DNA of 57,665 bases. Source: Actinomycetota bacterium (GTDB lineage Bacteria; Actinomycetota; UBA4738; HRBIN12). The stretch is taken from contig DASSCU010000023.1 in assembly GCA_035697485.1 (NCBI GenBank), forward strand, positions 1-57,665. The letters are read 5' to 3'. This document shows positions 39,077 to 50,267 of the stretch, in pieces; the first letter of the stretch is position 1, and each line of letters opens with the position of its first letter. The notes under the pieces were generated by a model that was not told the origin of the DNA, did no database searches, and saw nothing but the letters and a program-made list of their open reading frames with translations. Position numbers and translations under genes: made by a program.

Positions 39077-41089
39077 TCAACGTGCGTCCTCAGCCCTCGT
39101 CACGGGCTCCTCATCCCGACCTCGGCGGTCGATGAAGTGGCGGGCCGCCGCCGCGATGATTCCGACAACGGCGACCACGATGGCGAGCGTGGTCCCCCAT
39201 TCACCCGTCTGGAAACCCAGATGCTCCGCCGCGAGGCCCGAAAGGACGAGCACTGACACCCCCGTCGCGGGGGCCAGACAGGCTCGCGCGATCGGATCGC
39301 TCGGACCCGTGCCCCACGCCCAGCCGATCCCCACCACGCCGACTCCGACGAGCAGGAAGAGCGCAGTCCCGATGAGTGACATGAGCGTCGGGGCAATCGG
39401 GTCGGACGGCTGGACCAGTTCGGATCTCGGGGGTGGCCCGCGAACGATCGCGAGCCAATCCGTCACCCTCCAACTCGGATGGTCCTGGACGAGCCGGTCG
39501 AACGACACATGGAACGGTCGGAGCACGATCACGAGCGGATCGCTCGAGAGCAGGGGGCGGACCCGTTCCCACAGCTCGAGCGACGTCTCGTCGAACCCGG
39601 GTACGTCGGGACGGAGCGTCGGCCTTCCCTGCAGGAGGGCGGTGGGATCGCCGAGGTATGGCGTCACATCCAGGATGAGGTCGGGTTCGAGCTCCGCCCG
39701 CAAGCGCCGCAGCATCGGGACAGAGCCGAAGTCCGCACCTGAGGTGGCTTGGTCCCCAGCCGGCCCGTCCACCACCACGAGCGCAGGCCGGTCGGCCGCG
39801 CCGATGTAACGAGCCACGGCCTGTAACTGGGCGAGCCGCTCGTTCGAGGTCGGGGCAGGCCTCGACGTCCAGACCTCGTGGGTCTGCGCGACCGACAAGA
39901 CGACCAGGGCGAGGGCGAGCAGCCCGAGGACGGCGGCCGCGGCTCGAGCCAGGAGCACCGGCCCGGCGCGCCCTACCGACGAGCGCCCGACCCGGATGAC
40001 CCCCTCCATCAGAGCCACCCCGAGGATCGGGATCGCGAGCGCGAACGTCAGCGCACGCTGTACTGGCACGGTTCTGCCGGCCTCGAAGAGGATGACGGCG
40101 CCAGCCGGCAGCAGGGCCCACGGCGCCAGCAACCAGAGCGATAGTCGCGAGGCTCGCCTGGCGAGGAGCGCGATAACACCGCCGACAGCCGCCACGGCCG
40201 GCGCCGGAAACCGATAGAGCGGCCGCTGTCGTTCGAAATTGTCGACGAGGCTATCCCTCGTGATCCCGAGAGAGGCTCGGGGGGTTCCAGGCGTGCCGAG
40301 GAGCGCCGCCGCTCCCACGACGAAGCCAACCGCCGTCGTCCCGAGGGTTGTGACCACGGACAGACGCCGCCATGAGGCGCCCGCCCTCCGTTCCGCGACC
40401 GAGCTTGGGATCGCCCCGAGCGATACGAGGAGCAGCAGGCCCGAGAACACCGCAGCGAACTGCCAGTGAACGGCGAACGCGGCGCCGAGCAAGAACGTCG
40501 AAGCGAAGTGCACACGACGATCCCCGGCGGCCGCAACAACGCAGGCGGCCGCGGCGAGGAGCAGCGGCATGACGAGCAGCTGCTCGAGGTAGCCGTTGGC
40601 GGCCAAGGCGACCTGCACGGACGCACCCACCCCGGCCACGTACGCGGGCAGCGCCCAGATCCGCGCCCGCATCGCTGCCCGCGCGAATCCTGCCGCGGCG
40701 AGCCCCGTCACGGCGGCCATCACGGCGGGAAGCACATACACGAGCCTTCGTGGCTCGGCGATGCCTGTGGCTTTGGCGATCGCCCCGATCACCGGAAGCC
40801 CCGGCCGATCCGCGTTCGTGTTGAGGGCCTGCGTGCGCCCATCGAACGGAGGCAGCGCGTCGAGACCACCGTCGGCGACGATCTCGATGCGCCACTCATG
40901 CTGCGCCGTGTCGCTGCCGGCCGGTGCCACCTGGGCCGGATCCCGATATCGATCGAGGAACACCCAGCCGACGAGCCCGGCGGCAGCAGCCAGCGAGGTT
41001 GCAAGCGCGATGGAAGACGCGACGACGACAAGGACGTGCGGGACCTTCTTCGTCCGACCCGGAACCTGTGGGCCGGAGCGCTCGTGCAT
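39077..41089 (-). CDS. Multi-spanning membrane protein, GT-C-like (paralogue 1 of a tandem pair)
   Basis: 670 residues. One N-terminal helix (VVVASSIALATSLAAAAGLV) is followed by a loop with GSDTAQHEWRIEIVADGG, an acidic/His segment like the first loop of GT-C glycosyltransferases. About nine or ten helices follow, then a soluble domain with a Rossmann-like VVDGPAGDQATSGADFG segment and LVIVLRPFHVSFDRL. Three more helices close the protein. Length and layout match the next gene. A lipid-linked sugar transfer role is an inference from topology alone. ATG 41089 is chosen over an upstream in-frame start. Confidence 0.75.
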   Translation of the reverse strand: MHERSGPQVPGRTKKVPHVLVVVASSIALATSLAAAAGLVGWVFLDRYRDPAQVAPAGSDTAQHEWRIEIVADGGLDALPPFDGRTQALNTNADRPGLPVIGAIAKATGIAEPRRLVYVLPAVMAAVTGLAAAGFARAAMRARIWALPAYVAGVGASVQVALAANGYLEQLLVMPLLLAAAACVVAAAGDRRVHFASTFLLGAAFAVHWQFAAVFSGLLLLVSLGAIPSSVAERRAGASWRRLSVVTTLGTTAVGFVVGAAALLGTPGTPRASLGITRDSLVDNFERQRPLYRFPAPAVAAVGGVIALLARRASRLSLWLLAPWALLPAGAVILFEAGRTVPVQRALTFALAIPILGVALMEGVIRVGRSSVGRAGPVLLARAAAAVLGLLALALVVLSVAQTHEVWTSRPAPTSNERLAQLQAVARYIGAADRPALVVVDGPAGDQATSGADFGSVPMLRRLRAELEPDLILDVTPYLGDPTALLQGRPTLRPDVPGFDETSLELWERVRPLLSSDPLVIVLRPFHVSFDRLVQDHPSWRVTDWLAIVRGPPPRSELVQPSDPIAPTLMSLIGTALFLLVGVGVVGIGWAWGTGPSDPIARACLAPATGVSVLVLSGLAAEHLGFQTGEWGTTLAIVVAVVGIIAAAARHFIDRRGRDEEPVTRAEDAR

Positions 41090-41201
41090 AGCTCCGCAGT
41101 GTCGCAAATCATCAACCGACCGTCAGGCGGCCCCTCGCATCCGCCGCCACAGTCTCGTTCCTCCGGGCGGACCCTGACCGAGGGTCCAGCCCGACGTGGC
41201 G

Positions 41202-43217
41202 CTAGGCCCGCGGGCGGATGCGCGTGGCCGCCACCCAGCCGACCACTGCCACGATAAGGAGGGCCGAGAGGCCAACCCCTCCCCCCGGATCGGCCCCCGC
41301 GAGGGCGGCCGCGGTCCCGATCAGGACGACGACCACGATGCCGAAGGCCGGTGCGAGGGCAGCCTCGTCACCCATCGCCCTCTCTCCGCCTCGAGACGCG
41401 AGGTGCGAATACCCGCCGCCCACCACGCCGAGAAGGAGGATCGTGACGCTCGCGGCTGCCCAAGCGCTGATCGGCGACGCCGAGGCATACTCCGGCAACT
41501 CCTCCGGAGGAGGTGACGATCGCCCGGAGACGGCCAGGTCATCATCGACAAGCTCTGCACCCTCCGACAGAACCAGCTCCCACGATCGCTCATGCATGTA
41601 CATCCGCGGGAACACGATCACCGCCCCGTCGCGGATCGCCGCGGACACGTCTGGCCAGGTTCTTTCCGAAATGCCATTGAGGACTTGACCCAGTTCGTCG
41701 GCGCGGGGAGGAAGCCTCTTGGGTTCGCCAGCGAGGAGGCGCTCCGGGTCGCCCACGTACATGAACAGGTGGCTGGCCCGGGGACCGTCCAGGAAGGATC
41801 GGGCGATGTTGAGACGCACCTTCCAGAGCAAGGCCCCCTGGGCCTGCCACGGCTCGAACACCATCACTACGGGAACGTCCGCAGGATGCCCTCGTGCGAA
41901 GGCCGCGACTTGCCGCGCCGGCGGTGCGCGATCGCTCCAAGGATCGGAGGCGGCCGCCCGAAACCCGGCGAGCCCAAGTAGCCCGGCCACGAGGGCCGCC
42001 CCCAGACCGAGAAGCGCCGCTCCCCCGACCGCGACAGCCCGCACGCGCCCCAACCCGCGACCGGCCAACTCCGCGATCCTTACGGCCACCAATCCGGTCA
42101 CCGCCCCGAGTGGCACTGCCAACATCAGCGTCCGATGCCCCGGGAAGCCGGGTGCGACGAGCATGACGGCCACCCCTGCCAAGCATGCAACGACCCAAGC
42201 GAAGAGCAGGCGTTGTGCACTCGGGTCGCCGCGTCTCCACCCGCGCAGCGCCACGAGGAACAGTCCAGCGATGACCAGCGGCGCGACCGGGACTACCCAC
42301 TCCCATGTGTTCCCGAGTCGCCGAACGAAATACCCTTGCACCAGCTCGAGGTCGCCGAGCTCTCCGAGCGATCGGCGCATGATGGCGAACACGACGAGAA
42401 GAGTGCCGACGGTGCCCAGCGTGAGCGCCGCGAGCGCGAAGACCGGTCGGAGATCGAGCGGTCGGGCTCCCGCTCCACCGTGACGAGCCCTCCCGGTCAG
42501 CGAAGCGACGACGGACAGACCGAGCCACAACGCCACGATGGCGAACCAAGCCGGAAGGATCCCGGGATGTGCCAGTCCCGCAGCGAGGAACGCCGTGGCC
42601 GCGAGGGCATATGCAGCCCACGATGAGGTCCTGCTCCGGACAACGGCGGCCATCCCCGCGGAGAAACAGACGAGCGCGGTCAGATTGGCGATGTAGCCGG
42701 TGAGGCGGCTCGTCCCACCGAACGTGGCCGCCCCGATCGCGACCGGCAGCATCGCCCACACCGGCAGCGAGAGCGCCTGGCGCAGCAGCGTGGCGACCGC
42801 GAGACCAAGTACCGCGCAGAGCGCGATCGCGATCAACGTTGGTGCGAGATCCCCGGGCACCACGCCGGATCCCTGAAGGAGCGCGCCCATCGCCAAGGTC
42901 CCGGGGCGGGGATCGATGGACTCGAGAAGCCCGGCTCGCACGGCGCGGAACTGCCAGGCGTAGCTGAACTGGTCCGCTCCGATGATGTGCACTCGGCTCC
43001 CAAACGACCAGGCGTACAGGGCAACGATCACCGTGGCTGCGGCACCGCTGGCCACTATCCCCGCGACTCCATCGGAACTCCATCGTGCGACAGGCTCGGA
43101 TCCGGGCTCCATCAGGACCGCGCCGTCGGTGCTCCGTTGCTGCTCACCACGGGTTGCTGACGCCGGAGGTGTCGTGCGAGATGGACCTTCCCCACGCTGA
43201 GTGTCTCCGGCCCTCAT
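41202..43217 (-). CDS. Multi-spanning membrane protein, GT-C-like (paralogue 2 of a tandem pair)
   Basis: 671 residues with the same plan as paralogue 1: N-terminal helix (GIVASGAAATVIVALYAW), first loop IIGADQFSYAWQFRAVRAG, about ten helices, then a soluble domain (VVMVFEPWQAQGALLWKVR, GAVIVFPRMYMHERSWEL) and three C-terminal helices. ATG 43217 is preferred because a TAGACT element lies eight bases upstream, fitting a leaderless mRNA. It is divergent from the pyruvyl transferase operon. A glycosyltransferase role is inferred from layout only; it could also be a flippase or ligase. Confidence 0.75.
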   Translation of the reverse strand: MRAGDTQRGEGPSRTTPPASATRGEQQRSTDGAVLMEPGSEPVARWSSDGVAGIVASGAAATVIVALYAWSFGSRVHIIGADQFSYAWQFRAVRAGLLESIDPRPGTLAMGALLQGSGVVPGDLAPTLIAIALCAVLGLAVATLLRQALSLPVWAMLPVAIGAATFGGTSRLTGYIANLTALVCFSAGMAAVVRSRTSSWAAYALAATAFLAAGLAHPGILPAWFAIVALWLGLSVVASLTGRARHGGAGARPLDLRPVFALAALTLGTVGTLLVVFAIMRRSLGELGDLELVQGYFVRRLGNTWEWVVPVAPLVIAGLFLVALRGWRRGDPSAQRLLFAWVVACLAGVAVMLVAPGFPGHRTLMLAVPLGAVTGLVAVRIAELAGRGLGRVRAVAVGGAALLGLGAALVAGLLGLAGFRAAASDPWSDRAPPARQVAAFARGHPADVPVVMVFEPWQAQGALLWKVRLNIARSFLDGPRASHLFMYVGDPERLLAGEPKRLPPRADELGQVLNGISERTWPDVSAAIRDGAVIVFPRMYMHERSWELVLSEGAELVDDDLAVSGRSSPPPEELPEYASASPISAWAAASVTILLLGVVGGGYSHLASRGGERAMGDEAALAPAFGIVVVVLIGTAAALAGADPGGGVGLSALLIVAVVGWVAATRIRPRA

Positions 43218-43409: not shown

Positions 43410-44681
43410 ATGGCCGATCCGAGGATCCTGCTGATCGGATACAACGGCGCGAACAACACCGGAGCTGAGGCGCTGCTCCTCTCCGACCTCGCAGACGTCC
43501 GCGCCGTGTTCGGACCTCGTGCGCCGATCACGATCCCGGCCCTCGAGCCGGCGAACCTCCGTCGATACGTTGGCGACGCACCAGGCGTCCGGGTCGAGCC
43601 CCTCCCCACGATCTTCCCCCTCACCGTCCGGCGGCTCGTGCGGGAACACGACTTCGTGATGCTCGTCGAGGGCAGTGCGTATATGGACACGTGGACGTCG
43701 GCGCTCCTGTGGTACTTCCTGTGGGCGACACGCTGCGCGGCCGTCCACGGGACGCCGTGCATCGCGTACGCGGTCGATGCCGGTCAACTCCGTCCGAGGA
43801 ATGCGCGCTTGGTCCGGCGGCAGGCGAGCCGGACCGACCTCATCGTCACGCGCTCGGCGGCCGCCGCCGGGCGTCTCCGGTCGTGGGGCGTCGCCGCGCC
43901 GATCGAGACCACTGCCGACAACGCCTTCACGTTCCGCCCCGAAGGACGGGATCGAGGGTGGCTCCATGATGCGTGGCCCGATGCCGGCCCTTCGCCGATC
44001 GGGATCGCCGCGGTCGACCTCTTCCTGTGGCCGGTCGTGATCCGCCCGTTCGGACGACGAGCCGACCGCTACCGATGGCCTTACTCCTTCAGCCGATCAA
44101 CCGCCCGCCGCCAAGCTTCCACGCGGCTCGCTGAGGGATACGCGAGGATCGCCGACCGGGTCGTGACGGAGCACGAGCGATCCGTCGCACTCATCTGCAT
44201 GGAGGAGCTCGACGAGACGTTCGCGCGGGCGATCTACGAGCGGATGCGCCGACCAGACCGAGCCCGGATCTTCTCGTCCCGCGACCTGGACGCGTCGAAG
44301 ATGACCGTGCTCCTGCGGAGCCTCGGTGGGCTTCTGACGTCGCGCTACCACGCCTCGATCCTCTCGATGTCAGCCGGCGTACCACAGGTGGCAATCGGAC
44401 ACGACCTCCGGCTCCGCACCCTGTTCGAGGAGTTGAAGCTCGATCGCTGCTTCGTCGGTCCGGGAGGCGACGGCGACCTCGCGAAGCACCCGGTCGATCT
44501 TGAGGCCATGGTGGACGCGGCGTCGGCACGTCTGGACGACGTCCTCGCTGCTCCGACCGGCGTCACGAGCGCGCTGCTCGATGGCTACGAGCGACATCTC
44601 CACGACGCCCGACGGAACCGCGAGCTGCTCCAGGCCTTCGCCGACGCGCACGGATGGGGAGCCGAGCCGTGGGCAGCGTAG
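43410..44681 (+). CDS. Polysaccharide pyruvyl transferase family protein (CsaB-like)
   Basis: 423 residues. ILLIGYNGANNTGAEALLL is the signature start of the family, followed by VMLVEGSAYMDTWTS, IAYAVDAGQLRPRNARLV and ADNAFTFRP. The C-terminal half has VALICMEELDETFARAI, LLTSRYHASILSMSAGVP and QVAIGHDLRLRTLFEEL, the conserved SRYHA-SI-S-GVP motif. Members move pyruvate from PEP to sugars of surface polymers. ATG 43410 follows GGGAGGGAA. First gene of a five-gene plus-strand unit, divergent from the GT-C-like pair; together they suggest envelope glycan or glycolipid work. Confidence 0.9.
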   Translation: MADPRILLIGYNGANNTGAEALLLSDLADVRAVFGPRAPITIPALEPANLRRYVGDAPGVRVEPLPTIFPLTVRRLVREHDFVMLVEGSAYMDTWTSALLWYFLWATRCAAVHGTPCIAYAVDAGQLRPRNARLVRRQASRTDLIVTRSAAAAGRLRSWGVAAPIETTADNAFTFRPEGRDRGWLHDAWPDAGPSPIGIAAVDLFLWPVVIRPFGRRADRYRWPYSFSRSTARRQASTRLAEGYARIADRVVTEHERSVALICMEELDETFARAIYERMRRPDRARIFSSRDLDASKMTVLLRSLGGLLTSRYHASILSMSAGVPQVAIGHDLRLRTLFEELKLDRCFVGPGGDGDLAKHPVDLEAMVDAASARLDDVLAAPTGVTSALLDGYERHLHDARRNRELLQAFADAHGWGAEPWAA

Positions 44682-47383
44682 TCCTGCTCACGGGCGCGAC
44701 GGGGTTCGTCGGGACCGAAGTCGGCAGCCGGCTCCTCGATCGGGACGACGTCTCTCTCATCGCGTTCGTCAAGGCTGCGACCGACGACGAAGCGCGCCGT
44801 GTGGCGCTCCGCAGCTGGTACGACCGGACCGCGCTCACGGGAGCCATCGGGGGTCGCGTCGAAGTGATCGCCGGCGACCTGACGCAACCGCTGCTCGGCC
44901 TCGACCCGGACGCGTACGCGACACTCGTTCGCCGGCTCACCCACGTCGTGCACGCGGCCGCGAACGTTCGCTTCGACGCATCGCTCGACGACCTGCGCTC
45001 CACGAACGTGGTCGGGACCGCGAACGTCCTGGCGCTCGCCCGCGCGGCTCACGCCGATCACGGGCTCGAGCGTCTCCTGCACATCTCGACCGCTTACGTC
45101 GCGGGCCGCCGGACGGGCGAGATCGGGGAGGACGACCTCAGCGACGGGTCCGGCTTCGAGAACGACTACGAGCGGACGAAGTTCGAGGCGGAACGGCTCG
45201 CCCGCGATGCGATGGCGGGTCTTCCGATCACCGTCGCACGTCCCGCCATGATCGTCGGCGATTCACGGACCGGTGAGATCGCGACGTTCAACACGTTCTA
45301 CGTGCTGCTCCGCCGGTACCTCACGCGGCGTACCTATGCCATGCCCGTCAGCCCCCGCCTGCGGGTGAACGTCGTGCCGGTTGACTACGTCGCCGATGCG
45401 ATCGTGCAACTGCTGATGGATCCTCGCGCCGAGGGACGCACCGTCCATCTCACTGCCCCGTGGTCGTCGCTCCCGACGGCAGCCGAAGTGCTCCGTGAAG
45501 TCCGGGGGTGGGCGCGAGTCGAGCTCGGCCTCCGGCTCCCTCGGCCGATCCTCGTGCCCCTGCCCGGAGTGCCCTGGCCCCGACGTGGCGGTGATCGGCT
45601 CGACATCCTGTTGCCGTACCTGCGCGAGCGTCGCACGTTCCGACGCGACCACGCCGATCGGCTGATCGGACCGTATGAGCTGCGCTGGCAGACATACCTC
45701 CCGAACCTGATCCGCTACGCGGTCGGCCGTGGCTTCCTCCACCGTTCCGGACGGACGGTCCACGAGCAAGCGATGTACCGGCTGCGGAGTCGGCGGCTGC
45801 CGGTGCGATACGTCGACATCGTCGACGGGCAGGCGCATCCGCGGTCGGCGGAGGGCGTGCGCACCGACGTGCTGGCGTCGGCGAACGCGCTTCGCGGGAT
45901 CGGCATCGGCGCCGGCACGCGGGTCGCGATCGTCGGACCGAACGGGACGCGGTACCTGACACTCGAGCTGGCGCTCGGCCTCCTCGGCGCGATCACCGTT
46001 CCGCTCTACGCCACGACGCCGTCCGACGAGATCGACGCGATCCTGCGATCGAGCGGCGCGGAGGCGCTGATCGTCGGATCGCCTCGGATCCTCGAGAACC
46101 TTGGGCCGGTCGCGTCATCCCTGCCGACCGTGTCGTTCTGCCGCGGGGTACCTCCAGAAGGAGTTCTCGACTGGGGCGACCTGGTCGCCAACCGCGCCGA
46201 GGCGCCTGAGATCGAGCGGGCGCCCGTCGGGCTCGCGGACGTCGCAACGCTCCGCTACACGTCGGGGACCACCGGTTTCCCGAAAGGTGTCACGTTCACC
46301 CATGGGCAACTGCGATGGATGGCCGAGTCGATCGCGTCGCTCGTGCCGTGGCGTGCGCGCACGAGGCCGGTTTCCTACGTGTCGTTCCTCCCGATGAACC
46401 ACGTTGTCGAGGGGATCCTGGGGACGTACGGGCCTTATTCGATGCCGGCTCCCGTCGAGGTCGCGTTCGTCGAAGACATCCAGGACGTGCCGGACGCCCT
46501 CCGCTCGGTTCATCCGACGGTGTTCTTCTCTGTCCCGCGGCTCTACGAGAAGGTGTGGGCACGCGTCGAGGCGAGCGCGGTGGGCCGGCGCTTCCTGGCA
46601 TCGCGCGACGGGCCGGCGAAGCGCGCCCTGGGCTCGGCGGTCCGCCGGACCGTGCTGAGGCGCGCTGGCCTCGGGCGCTGCGCGCAGCTGATCGTCGGGT
46701 CGGCCCCGATACCGGACGGTCTCCTCACGAGATTCCACGAGATCGGCGTCGAGGTGCACGACGCATACGGTCTCACCGAGGCACCCCTGCTCACGCTGAA
46801 TCGGTCGGGGCGCAACCGGATCGGCACGGTCGGCGAGCCGCTTCCAGGGACCACCGTGCGCATCGCGGAGGACGGCGAGATCCTGGCGAGGGGTCCCCAG
46901 GTGACGATCGGCTACGCAGACCAAGGCGCGACGCAGCCGTTCCGCGATGGTTGGCTCACGACCGGCGACCTCGGGCACATGGAAGACGGCTACCTCGTGA
47001 TCGACGGCCGCAAGAAGGAGTTGCTGAAGACCTCCTACGGGAAGTACCTGAACCCGGCGAAGATCGAGGCGCGGCTCCGAAGCATCCCCGGAGTGACGAA
47101 CGCCATGGTCATGGGCGAGGCTCGACGCTTCTGTACGGCGCTGCTGTGGGTCGAAGGGACGCCAACGGACGCACGGCGTGACGTCGTCGCGGAAGCGATC
47201 ACCGAGATCAACCGTTCCCTGTCCCACCCGGAACAGGTGAAGCGTTGGGCGGTGCTCGCCGACGACCTCTCGATCGGCGCCGGCGACCTGACGCCGAACC
47301 TCAAGCTCAAGCGCGAGCGGATCGTCGCGCGTCATGCGGACGTGATCGACGGGCTCTACGAGCGGGAGGAGGTCCGCGTATGA
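44669..47383 (+). CDS. Fusion of an NAD(P)-binding thioester-reductase-like SDR with a long-chain acyl-AMP ligase
   Basis: 904 residues. Residues ~1-370 are an extended SDR of the male-sterility/thioester-reductase type: VLLTGATGFVGTEVGSRLL, VVHAAANVRFDASLDDL, LLHISTAYVAGRRTGE and the Tyr167-x3-Lys171 pair in NDYERTKFEAE. Residues ~385-904 are an ANL adenylating enzyme: YTSGTTGFPKGVTFTH at residue 530, PTVFFSVPRLYEKVWARV (long-chain/FAA1 style), DAYGLTEAPLLT, WLTTGDLGHMEDG and NLKLKRERI with the catalytic Lys. No carrier domain lies between. Order is the reverse of carboxylic acid reductases. It probably activates a fatty acid and reduces it, or couples two steps. GTG 44669 overlaps the previous gene by 13 bases. 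Confidence 0.9.
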   Translation: MGSVVLLTGATGFVGTEVGSRLLDRDDVSLIAFVKAATDDEARRVALRSWYDRTALTGAIGGRVEVIAGDLTQPLLGLDPDAYATLVRRLTHVVHAAANVRFDASLDDLRSTNVVGTANVLALARAAHADHGLERLLHISTAYVAGRRTGEIGEDDLSDGSGFENDYERTKFEAERLARDAMAGLPITVARPAMIVGDSRTGEIATFNTFYVLLRRYLTRRTYAMPVSPRLRVNVVPVDYVADAIVQLLMDPRAEGRTVHLTAPWSSLPTAAEVLREVRGWARVELGLRLPRPILVPLPGVPWPRRGGDRLDILLPYLRERRTFRRDHADRLIGPYELRWQTYLPNLIRYAVGRGFLHRSGRTVHEQAMYRLRSRRLPVRYVDIVDGQAHPRSAEGVRTDVLASANALRGIGIGAGTRVAIVGPNGTRYLTLELALGLLGAITVPLYATTPSDEIDAILRSSGAEALIVGSPRILENLGPVASSLPTVSFCRGVPPEGVLDWGDLVANRAEAPEIERAPVGLADVATLRYTSGTTGFPKGVTFTHGQLRWMAESIASLVPWRARTRPVSYVSFLPMNHVVEGILGTYGPYSMPAPVEVAFVEDIQDVPDALRSVHPTVFFSVPRLYEKVWARVEASAVGRRFLASRDGPAKRALGSAVRRTVLRRAGLGRCAQLIVGSAPIPDGLLTRFHEIGVEVHDAYGLTEAPLLTLNRSGRNRIGTVGEPLPGTTVRIAEDGEILARGPQVTIGYADQGATQPFRDGWLTTGDLGHMEDGYLVIDGRKKELLKTSYGKYLNPAKIEARLRSIPGVTNAMVMGEARRFCTALLWVEGTPTDARRDVVAEAITEINRSLSHPEQVKRWAVLADDLSIGAGDLTPNLKLKRERIVARHADVIDGLYEREEVRV

Positions 47384-47931
47384 GCCTCCGGACCCGGGCG
47401 CTCCCCGATCGGATCCCAGAACCTGTGAGGCGCTGGGCGCTGCGCGCGCTCTTCCGAGCGACGGTGGATGCGTTCGGCGCGCCGATGCCGGATCTTCGTG
47501 GATGCTCGGCCGACGCGATCCTCAGCGCCTACGCGACGTGCACCGACGTGCTCGCTGGGAGCCTGCTCCTCGATCCCGAGCGCCGGCCGCTCGTCGAGCG
47601 ATGCCTCCGATCGAACATGGAGCGGCTCGGCCGCCGTGTCCGAGTCGCGCTCGGCGTCCGGACAACTGCAGATGCGCTCGATGTCGCGCACCGGCTCTAC
47701 GGGCTGATCGGGATAGACCTGACCGGCGACGACCGAGGGCAGGTCGTCGTCACCCGATGCTCGTTCGCGACGCGCTACTCGCCGGACGTGTGTCGCGTGA
47801 TGTCGGCTTCTGACGCGGGACTGTTGGCCGGGTTGACGGACGGTGGCCGGCTCACCTTCTCCGAGCGCATCACGACGGGTTCACCGGTATGCCTCGCGAC
47901 GCTCAGTATCGGTGGGGAAGGTTCGCGGTGA
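47380..47931 (+). CDS. Small conserved protein of unknown function with C-terminal Cys motifs
   Basis: 183 residues. The first half is helical and basic (PDRIPEPVRRWALRALFRA). The C-terminal half has VVVTRCSFATRYSPDVCRV and a closing TTGSPVCLATLSI, a pattern of spaced cysteines resembling small V4R or ATC-hydrolase-like proteins, but the match is too weak for a call. ATG 47380 overlaps the fusion gene stop (ATGA) and its own stop overlaps the GMC start (GTGA), so it is tightly bound into the pathway operon. Confidence 0.65.
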   Translation: MSLRTRALPDRIPEPVRRWALRALFRATVDAFGAPMPDLRGCSADAILSAYATCTDVLAGSLLLDPERRPLVERCLRSNMERLGRRVRVALGVRTTADALDVAHRLYGLIGIDLTGDDRGQVVVTRCSFATRYSPDVCRVMSASDAGLLAGLTDGGRLTFSERITTGSPVCLATLSIGGEGSR

Positions 47932-49253
47932 AGACAGCGATCGTCGTCGGGAGCGGGGCCGGGGGGGCCACGGTTGCGAAGGAGTTGCAGGGCGCGTTCG
48001 ACGTCACGGTGCTCGAAGCTGGTCGACCGTACCGTCGATGCGAGCTCGACAGACGCTCGATCGCTCGACTCGCTCGGAGCCGGCTCCTGGTGGATCCCCG
48101 GCTTCTCAGGGTTGCGTACCCAGCGATGCGGGTCGGCCGCACCGCCGACATGCTCGTCGTTCACGGCAGCGGGACCGGGGGGACGACCACCGTGGCGACC
48201 GGCAACGGGATCCGAGCCGACGACGACCTCCGCGCGCTCGGCATCGACCTGGACGAGGAATTCGCCCAGATCGCAGCCGAGATCCCCGTGTCGGTCGAAC
48301 ACCGGCGCCGATGGCACCCGACGACCAGGCGGCTGTTCGCCGCCGCCGAGGACCTCGGCCTCGCCCCGCAGCCGACACCGAAGATGGGACGCGCCGAAGG
48401 TTGTCACCACTGCGGACGCTGCGTCTTGGGGTGTCCGTACGGGATCAAGTGGGATGCACGGCGCTCTCTCGACGTCGCCGTCGCTCACGGAGCGCGGGTG
48501 CGGACGGGCACCCGGGTAGACCGGGTCGTGACCGAGGGAGGACGCGCCGTCGGCGTCTTGACGACCGGGCCTATGAGCCGTCGGTCGCTCAGGGCCGATC
48601 TCGTCGTCCTCGCGGCCGGCGGCCTCGGCACGCCGGCGATCCTCGAGCGCTCGGGGGTCCGATGCGAACCGACGCTCTCGGTCGACCCCGTGCTCACAGT
48701 CGCGGCGCGAGTGCCGTCGGCTTGGCAGTGCAACGAGATCGAGATGCCGTTCGTCGTGCGTCGTGACCGCTACATCCTGTCGCCTTACTTCGACTGGTTG
48801 AGCTTCGCCCTCGACCCACGCTGGCGATACCCGCCGCAGGACATCGTCGGCGTGATGGTGAAGATCGCCGACGAGGGAGGCGGCCGAGTCGAGGAGCGCC
48901 GCGTGCGTACCCATCTGACGTCGGTCGATCGGTTGCGACTGGAAGAAGGTGCGGCGCTCGCCCGCGAGCTTCTGGCGGGCACCGGGGTCGATCCGGAGTC
49001 GACGTTCGAGGGCATCCTGAACGGTGGGCACCCCGGCGGAACGCTGCCCCTCACCCACGCCACCGCACTGACACTGCACGACGAGCGCCTGCCGGAGAAC
49101 CTCTACGTGGCCGACGCGACGCTCTTTCCGCGATCGTTGGGCCTGCCGCCGATCCTCACGATCGTCGCGCTCGCGACCCGCGTGGCACGGGCCGCCGCGA
49201 ATGCCTGTCTGCCAGCGCACGACCTGAAGTCCGCGAGCGAGATCGGTGTGTGA
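47928..49253 (+). CDS. GMC-family FAD oxidoreductase with a CxxCxxCxxxC motif
   Basis: 441 residues. FAD binding starts AIVVGSGAGGATVAKEL, with VTVLEAGRPY ending the second strand. VHGSGTGGTTTVATGNG follows. Cys159, Cys162, Cys165 and Cys169 (GCHHCGRCVLGCPYGIKW) resemble a ferredoxin-type iron-sulfur ligand set; similar cysteines occur in some GMC relatives. LVVLAAGGLGTPAILERSG and GGHPGGTLPLT near the end are typical. It could oxidise an alcohol to aldehyde or the reverse within this lipid or glycan pathway. GTG 47928 overlaps the previous gene. Slightly short for the family, which suggests a compact substrate domain. Confidence 0.88.
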   Translation: MKTAIVVGSGAGGATVAKELQGAFDVTVLEAGRPYRRCELDRRSIARLARSRLLVDPRLLRVAYPAMRVGRTADMLVVHGSGTGGTTTVATGNGIRADDDLRALGIDLDEEFAQIAAEIPVSVEHRRRWHPTTRRLFAAAEDLGLAPQPTPKMGRAEGCHHCGRCVLGCPYGIKWDARRSLDVAVAHGARVRTGTRVDRVVTEGGRAVGVLTTGPMSRRSLRADLVVLAAGGLGTPAILERSGVRCEPTLSVDPVLTVAARVPSAWQCNEIEMPFVVRRDRYILSPYFDWLSFALDPRWRYPPQDIVGVMVKIADEGGGRVEERRVRTHLTSVDRLRLEEGAALARELLAGTGVDPESTFEGILNGGHPGGTLPLTHATALTLHDERLPENLYVADATLFPRSLGLPPILTIVALATRVARAAANACLPAHDLKSASEIGV

Positions 49254-49268
49254 ACGCGAAGGGGGTCG

Positions 49269-50267
49269 ATGACGATGAAGGCGTGGGTGTACGAAAGGTA
49301 CGGGTCGCCCGACGTGCTCAGGTTCGAGGAGGTCGAGACACCGACGCCGGCCGGTGATGAGGTGGCGGTGCGCGTTCAAGCCTGTGGGCTCAACGCGGCC
49401 GACTGGCACGTGATGCGGGCCGACCCGTTCCTGGTTCGGCTCAGGTTCGGGCTCCGGCGGCCTCGCCACCCGATGATCGCCGGCTGCGACATCTCGGGCG
49501 TGGTCGAGTCGGTCGGCGAGCGCGTCACGCGGTTCTCTTCGGGCGACCACGTCTTCGCGGAGGTGGGGTTCACCGGGGGCCTCGCCGAGCTCGTCACGGT
49601 CCGAGCCGACCACATCGCGATGATGCCGACCAACTGCACGTTCGAGCAGGCCGCCGCGGTGCCCGTGTCGGGCGGCACGGCGCTCCAGGCGATCCGCGAT
49701 GCCGGCCAGGTCGGGCCCGGAACGACCGTGCTCCTGATCGGAGCATCGGGCGGCGTCGGCACCTTCGCCCTGCAGATCGCCCGAGCCCTCGGCGGAGCGG
49801 TCACCGCGGTGTGCGGTCCGGCGGCCCTCGAGCTCGTCCGCTCCCTCGGCGCCGTCGAGGTGATCGACTACACCGCCGAGAAGTACGTTGACGCCGGCCG
49901 GACCTACGACGTCGTCGTGAACAACGGGGGCACCCACTCGCTGCATTCTCTCCGCCGCACTCTCACCCCCAGGGGCACCCTTGCGGCCGTGGGTGGCTCA
50001 CAACACGGCGGCCTGTTCGGCCCCGGCGCGGTCGCGATGCGCGGCAAGATCGTCGCGCCGTTCGTGTCGCAGCGGCTCGTGGCCGTCGAAGGTGAGAACG
50101 ACGAGGCCACCCTCGCGACCCTCGCGGCGATGATCGAGGCGGGCGACGTTACCCCGGTGATCGATCGTGTCTACCCGCTCGGGGAGGCACCCGACGCGCT
50201 CCGATACGTCGAAAACGGACACCCGAAGGGCAAGGTCGTCGTGACGGTCGGCGAGGAGCGGATCTGA
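49269..50267 (+). CDS. Zinc-free medium-chain dehydrogenase/quinone oxidoreductase-like protein
   Basis: 332 residues. MKAWVYERYGSPDVLRFEE, VRVQACGLNAADWHVMR, IAGCDISGVVESVGERV and VLLIGASGGVGTFALQIA (NADPH-binding Rossmann) define the MDR fold. YDVVVNNGGTHSLHSLRR and HPKGKVVVTV close it. No catalytic-zinc Cys or structural-zinc cluster is present, so it belongs with quinone oxidoreductase/enoyl reductase-like members. It follows the GMC gene by 15 bases and is probably the last gene of this operon. An in-frame second ATG lies six bases on. Confidence 0.88.
   Translation: MTMKAWVYERYGSPDVLRFEEVETPTPAGDEVAVRVQACGLNAADWHVMRADPFLVRLRFGLRRPRHPMIAGCDISGVVESVGERVTRFSSGDHVFAEVGFTGGLAELVTVRADHIAMMPTNCTFEQAAAVPVSGGTALQAIRDAGQVGPGTTVLLIGASGGVGTFALQIARALGGAVTAVCGPAALELVRSLGAVEVIDYTAEKYVDAGRTYDVVVNNGGTHSLHSLRRTLTPRGTLAAVGGSQHGGLFGPGAVAMRGKIVAPFVSQRLVAVEGENDEATLATLAAMIEAGDVTPVIDRVYPLGEAPDALRYVENGHPKGKVVVTVGEERI

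Follow-up and report, generated by a model that had tools for sequence, protein, structure and literature searches.

A conserved four-gene cassette encoding a pyruvyl transferase-like protein and a reductase-ligase fusion in Bacteria and Archaea

Results

Four adjoining genes, for a pyruvyl transferase-like protein (PyrT), a fusion of a reductase with an AMP-binding ligase, a cysteine-bearing protein (Cys protein) and a GMC-type FAD oxidoreductase, almost certainly form a real unit, given their gene order, their co-occurrence in whole genomes and their correlated divergence, all of which were computed. Our tentative reading of this unit, plausible but a little short of an even call, is a self-contained, horizontally spread biosynthetic cassette that makes a pyruvate-bearing product. 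The enzyme families are all known; the gene combination and its distribution across both domains are new. A full-text search of 5.39 million open papers (most subscription papers and bioRxiv preprints fall outside its scope) found no paper describing the combination, which agrees with the sequence-only reading that preceded this analysis.

Layout of the locus

The window is the whole stretch of DNA that was analysed, 57,665 nucleotides of a contig from an Actinomycetota bacterium. Five genes had been described in it as running head to tail, and the coordinates of the open reading frames match that description to the base. At the first three junctions the genes overlap by 13, 4, and 4 bases, and a gap of 15 bases separates the fourth gene from the fifth. 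The fusion (44669) and the GMC gene (47928) both start with GTG. The five genes are as follows.

43410..44681, plus strand: PyrT, polysaccharide pyruvyl transferase-like (PF04230); Pfam PS_pyruv_trans, 1.8e-11
44669..47383, plus strand: fusion of an N-terminal NAD_binding_4 SDR (fatty-acyl/thioester-reductase-type) with an AMP-binding ligase and a C_3 domain; Pfam
47380..47931, plus strand: Cys protein, ATC_hydrolase family (PF14196), predicted V4R/TRAPPC3-like fold; Pfam matches of orthologs, AF2 and Foldseek
47928..49253, plus strand: GMC-type FAD oxidoreductase with a four-cysteine motif; GMC_oxred_N, 7.6e-24
49269..50267, plus strand: quinone-reductase-like MDR protein, outside the conserved cassette; Pfam ADH_zinc_N_2/ADH_N

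Two large proteins encoded on the minus strand (window positions 39077-41092 and 41202-43112) are the pair that had been called GT-C-like. They are related to one another (27% over about 160 residues, E 5e-4), and their Pfam matches are weak.

Conservation of the four-gene unit

When a single genome from each species was scanned, relatives of the fusion were recovered in 34 further loci, 41-58% identical and mostly full length, with some partial. The titles of the contigs include Chloroflexi, Spirochaetes, Betaproteobacteria, Firmicutes, KSB1, Thermotoga, and Acetothermia, and, among the Archaea, Methanomassiliicoccales, Methanobacteriaceae, and other Euryarchaeota. Most of these loci are from metagenome-assembled genomes, and their titles may be wrong. 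The copies titled 'Thermotoga' (L047) and 'Acetothermia' (L068) are near-identical across the cassette, and the one titled 'KSB1' (L054) clusters with methanobacterial copies.

At least one of the genes for PyrT, Cys protein, and GMC adjoins the fusion in 30 of the 34 loci; four loci carry the fusion with none of the other three genes nearby. Searches with the window proteins (tblastn and blastp) placed all four genes together in about 20 loci; at loci cut off by a contig end, three or two of them were seen. The usual order is PyrT-fusion-Cys-GMC, the exceptions being L044 (fusion-PyrT-Cys-GMC) and L061 (Cys-GMC-PyrT-fusion), and at most junctions the genes overlap briefly, often by 4 bases. 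The usual arrangement of PyrT, fusion, Cys protein, and GMC is also found in a second genome from the phylum of the window (G052), whose fusion has 58-59% identity. In a Spirochaetes-titled contig (L048:4590-6488) the Cys protein and GMC lie in one open reading frame with a short linker between the homologous parts; this single frame could stem from a sequencing error that deleted a stop codon.

Co-occurrence and distribution

All nine PyrT-bearing genomes that were searched in whole also hold GMC and Cys genes, counting G052, in which the GMC gene is split over contigs or frames, and G075, in which the Cys gene is likewise split. The fusion also exists outside the cassette (L056, L060, L067, and L069); all four of these fusion-only genomes are without PyrT, GMC, and Cys protein anywhere, and the neighbors of their fusions are of four different kinds, Fe-S assembly genes among them. 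The shared clustering, with the first four families together in about 20 contigs of many lineages, and the whole-genome co-occurrence rule out a chance neighborhood that no relative shares.

PyrT orthologs were recovered with E-values of about 1e-175 to 1e-205, whereas paralogs in the same genomes were at best as good as 1e-16. Orthologs are present in 14 of the 147 genomes from the order of G061 (L063, titled Methanomassiliicoccaceae), in 6 of the 139 from the family of G063 (L045, titled Methanobacteriaceae), in 1 of the 400 from the phylum of G062 (L040, titled Chloroflexi), and, with distant paralogs left out, in 2 of the 396 from the window's own phylum. Because the distribution is patchy and gene order is conserved, we infer that the cassette spread horizontally between Bacteria and Archaea. 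A GMC query gave no match to plasmid-borne copies in PLSDB, and PADLOC gave no match to a defense system.

Within the window's phylum, the distant paralogs of PyrT (L086-L091) often occur as tandem pairs and are not accompanied by the other three genes. Their surroundings, named by eye, look alpha-glucan-like, with a GT4-like synthase, GH57-like and galT-like proteins, a methyltransferase, and a phytoene-desaturase-like FAD protein. As a clue to function these paralogs were uninformative, the alpha-glucan-like setting having no fusion, Cys protein, or GMC.

Co-divergence within the cassette

Distance matrices were compared for the 16 loci that have all four genes. The correlation is 0.93 between GMC and Cys protein and 0.73 between PyrT and the fusion, whereas correlations across the two halves (PyrT and fusion versus Cys protein and GMC) are weak at 0.29-0.40. 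This cross-half correlation is low because Cys protein and GMC occur as two deep types: a bacterial type, to which the window belongs (7 GMC rows, support 100/100), and a second type comprising the archaea and a few bacterial contigs. For GMC the mean identity is 0.41 between these groups and 0.56-0.58 within them, and for the Cys protein 0.25 and 0.39, respectively. PyrT and the fusion show no bacterial/archaeal split, as their mean identities between groups are 0.52 and 0.50, compared with 0.49-0.56 within groups. Within each Cys-GMC type, all gene pairs are positively correlated.

The two halves may have been exchanged, or may do separable jobs. PyrT and the fusion would handle the same precursor everywhere, with Cys protein and GMC probably adapted to something that differs between the types. 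A common precursor would argue against the idea that the fusion generally acts on a bacterial fatty acid. A long-chain fatty acid as substrate, along the lines of the sequence-only reading, finds no support: the cassette is also found in methanogens, and the fusion has no bacterial/archaeal split.

The pyruvyl transferase-like protein

The window PyrT matches PS_pyruv_trans with 44.9 bits (gathering score 25.3), and all 24 PyrT orthologs match PF04230. The CsaB equivalog model TIGR03609 gives an E-value of 4.3e-25, but its score of 88.7 bits is below the curated cut-off of 213.1. The AlphaFold model (AF2; pLDDT 92.3) has a predicted GT-B fold, and its top Foldseek matches are UDP-GlcNAc 2-epimerases and GT-B glycosyltransferases; Pvg1 (5ax7) is absent among the best 50 matches listed. 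Weak Glyco_transf_4 matches also occur among the orthologs. These structural and profile matches would suit a GT-B glycosyltransferase that makes a glycoside and does not use PEP. We consider this alternative improbable, given the PF04230 and CsaB-model matches and the arrangement of the conserved residues. R148, S311-R312-x-H314, and R334 are invariant in 24 of 24 sequences. By motif and spacing, PyrT R148, R312, H314, and R334 would correspond to the PEP-binding residues R148, R306, H308, and K328 of CsaB: the SRxH motif is followed by an Arg 20 residues past the His, in the place of CsaB K328. CsaB is disabled by R148K/Q and by H308A/R, and K328R stays active (PMC10435577).

The reductase-ligase fusion

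Pfam assigns NAD_binding_4 (9.7e-54) to residues 7-245 of the fusion and AMP-binding (8.3e-55) to residues 397-749, followed by AMP-binding_C_3, after which the chain ends; no Pfam match to a carrier or acyltransferase domain was obtained. In all 27 rows, S140-T141, Y167, and K171 of the SDR and E704, D767, R781, and K879 of the ligase are unchanged. Among solved structures, those of carboxylic acid reductases and thioester reductase domains come nearest, with 5mso (5.1e-70) the best match of the ligase half. The ligase half also matches the FadD11 model for long-chain acyl-CoA ligases with 3.8e-69. The fusion falls below the cut-off of the carboxylic acid reductase model NF041592 (172.8 versus 1300 bits).

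The main rival to our reading concerns the order of steps. In it PyrT acts first and pyruvylates a common polyol or sugar to give a ketal; the fusion then activates and reduces the free carboxylate of that pyruvate, and GMC and Cys protein act on the reduced group. The co-divergence of PyrT with the fusion would fit this order, as would the lack of a bacterial/archaeal split in both, which is expected for one universal precursor, and the resemblance of the ligase half to carboxylic acid reductases. However, the ligase half closely resembles long-chain acyl-CoA ligases as well, and we know of no enzyme that reduces a pyruvate ketal, nor of any pyruvylated molecule for which such a reduction is known. 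We regard this order as unlikely.

The Cys protein and the GMC oxidoreductase

The window's own Cys protein has no Pfam match, while PF14196 (ATC_hydrolase) is matched by 22 of 28 orthologs (best 1.3e-11). Its AF2 model (pLDDT 93.9) matches TRAPPC3/Bet3 in Foldseek with a probability of 1.00, at E-values of about 1e-3 or weaker and a TM of about 0.5. Further Foldseek matches are H-NOX, MJ1460 of the vinyl-4-reductase family, and the sensory domain (V4R) with which PoxR responds to phenol. C127, C138, and C171 are invariant in the alignment; these cysteines may bind metal, carry an acyl group, or take part in redox. The protein, whose family had previously been left unnamed, can be placed in the ATC_hydrolase family, with a predicted V4R-like fold.

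The GMC protein matches GMC_oxred_N, and G8 and G10 of its FAD-binding GxGxxG motif are invariant. A 4Fe-4S-like motif with ferredoxin spacing, C159-x2-C162-G-x-C165-x2-G-C169, is invariant in 24 of 24 sequences. Several orthologs have Fer4-type Pfam matches (best 1.1e-6), and the cysteine region aligns with the Cys-rich region of the FAD glucose dehydrogenase 6a2u. The closest GMC relatives outside the cassette, in the same phylum (E 1e-49 to 1e-76), mostly adjoin a protein of ~300 residues, and the five examples scanned carry two ferredoxin-type 4Fe-4S motifs; no Cys protein or PyrT was found near these relatives. Because of the four invariant cysteines, the Fer4 matches, the 6a2u alignment, and the ferredoxin-like neighbors of relatives, the cassette GMC is best read as a putative oxygen-independent, Fe-S-linked dehydrogenase.

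A sister GMC family of the same phylum is found at L126-L135 (e.g. L129:5874-8111), mostly paired with a ~300-residue protein whose five scanned examples carry two 4Fe-4S motifs. It is possibly an undescribed ferredoxin-linked GMC dehydrogenase.

GMC enzymes usually oxidize alcohols, and the ligase half of the fusion resembles FadD enzymes. Both features would suit a salvage or catabolic route, in which GMC oxidizes a long-chain or isoprenoid alcohol, the fusion makes acyl-CoA of the acid, and PyrT tags a side product. Against this, neither beta-oxidation nor any other catabolic family recurs beside the cassette, and a reductase domain joined to the ligase suits reduction better. A catabolic role therefore seems to us quite doubtful.

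Genes outside the cassette

The sequence-only reading had named co-occurrence of the five families as a check. The first four do cluster; the fifth does not follow, because a quinone-reductase gene comes directly behind GMC in none of the other loci that extend past it. The nearest such genes elsewhere are in L070, on the opposite strand and 3 kb away, and a weak one in L059. We therefore rejected the fifth gene as part of the cassette. The GT-C-like pair, which had been drawn into the pathway, adjoins none of the other cassette copies and was likewise rejected. A single pyruvylated glycolipid made by the five genes together with this divergent pair is highly improbable; the fifth gene lies close enough on the same strand for co-transcription to be possible, but neither it nor the pair adjoins another cassette copy. 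A glycolipid with a sugar acceptor, as originally proposed, also finds no counterpart in the flanks, where no glycosyltransferase family recurs.

The flanks of 22 loci supplied 85 proteins for a family scan. FMN_red turned up in 3 loci; the other recurring families were of general kinds (transporter, PAS, alpha/beta-hydrolase, and ADH). Since no further family recurs, the cassette looks self-contained. A gene for an FMN reductase (NADPH-dependent) or flavodoxin-like protein directly adjoins the cassette at L048:3-560, L053:7672-8454, and L071:3093-3878; this neighbor might be an electron partner of the cassette.

Discussion

We favor, tentatively, a biosynthetic cassette with a pyruvate-bearing product. 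We have moderate confidence in the types of reaction, namely the activation and reduction of a carboxylate, a second redox step, and pyruvyl transfer; in this respect the chemistry first proposed for the locus (acid activation and reduction, FAD-dependent redox, pyruvyl transfer) holds up. The order of steps and the product are suggested only weakly. With ATP and NAD(P)H, the fusion would activate a carboxylate and reduce it to an aldehyde or alcohol. GMC, with its putative four-cysteine Fe-S site, and the Cys protein as its dedicated partner would carry out a second, oxygen-independent redox change, the electrons from GMC presumably passing to ferredoxin or flavodoxin. PyrT would place PEP-derived pyruvate onto hydroxyls of the intermediate. 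The product may be a small, acidic, pyruvate-bearing lipid-like or specialized metabolite built from precursors common to bacteria and archaea.

In a bolder version, which we find conceivable but somewhat unlikely, an unrecognized pathway was passed between Bacteria and methanogenic Archaea and yields a single pyruvate-derived lipid or cofactor common to both; the most daring form has the pyruvate ketal itself as the substrate that the fusion activates and reduces.

The persistence of the four genes as a group in both Bacteria and Archaea, for the most part in a single order and with about 50% identity in the fusion, points to a product under selection. The cassette ties orphan ATC_hydrolase-like proteins of predicted V4R fold to a putative iron-sulfur GMC enzyme, shows that a pyruvyl transferase-like protein and a putative carboxylate-reducing fusion occur in methanogens, and provides a clearly bounded group of genes to express. 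A lipid product, if that is what the cassette makes, could also help to trace certain microbes of sediments or wetlands.

Comparison with known systems

Like carboxylic acid reductases, the fusion combines adenylation and NAD(P)H reductase domains in one chain; unlike them (A-T-R), it has the reductase first and is without the carrier (T) domain. The order of a FAR-type domain followed by an ACS domain is shared with ElbD of the Myxococcus xanthus elb ether-lipid operon, which is described as having a FAR1-like N-terminus, an acyl-CoA synthetase, an acyl-carrier protein, and an acyltransferase domain (PMC9131029). By that description, the fusion differs from ElbD in being without the ACP and acyltransferase domains, and the elb operon differs from the cassette in having no pyruvyl transferase, GMC, or ATC_hydrolase gene (PMC9131029).

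PyrT is in the same Pfam family as the ketal-pyruvyltransferases CsaB and Pvg1 and shares their GT-B fold, as predicted; in contrast to them, it has no recurring secondary cell wall polymer or S-layer genes beside it. The Cys protein belongs with the ATC_hydrolase family PF14196 and the V4R/TRAPPC3 proteins by the Pfam matches of its orthologs and its predicted fold, but stands apart as a constant neighbor of GMC. Although the cassette GMC has four cysteines in ferredoxin spacing, a partner of the ATC_hydrolase family with a predicted V4R-type fold, and no recurring cytochrome gene, it resembles the Fe-S GMC dehydrogenase 6a2u as a flavoprotein with a cysteine cluster in the same region and a dedicated partner gene.
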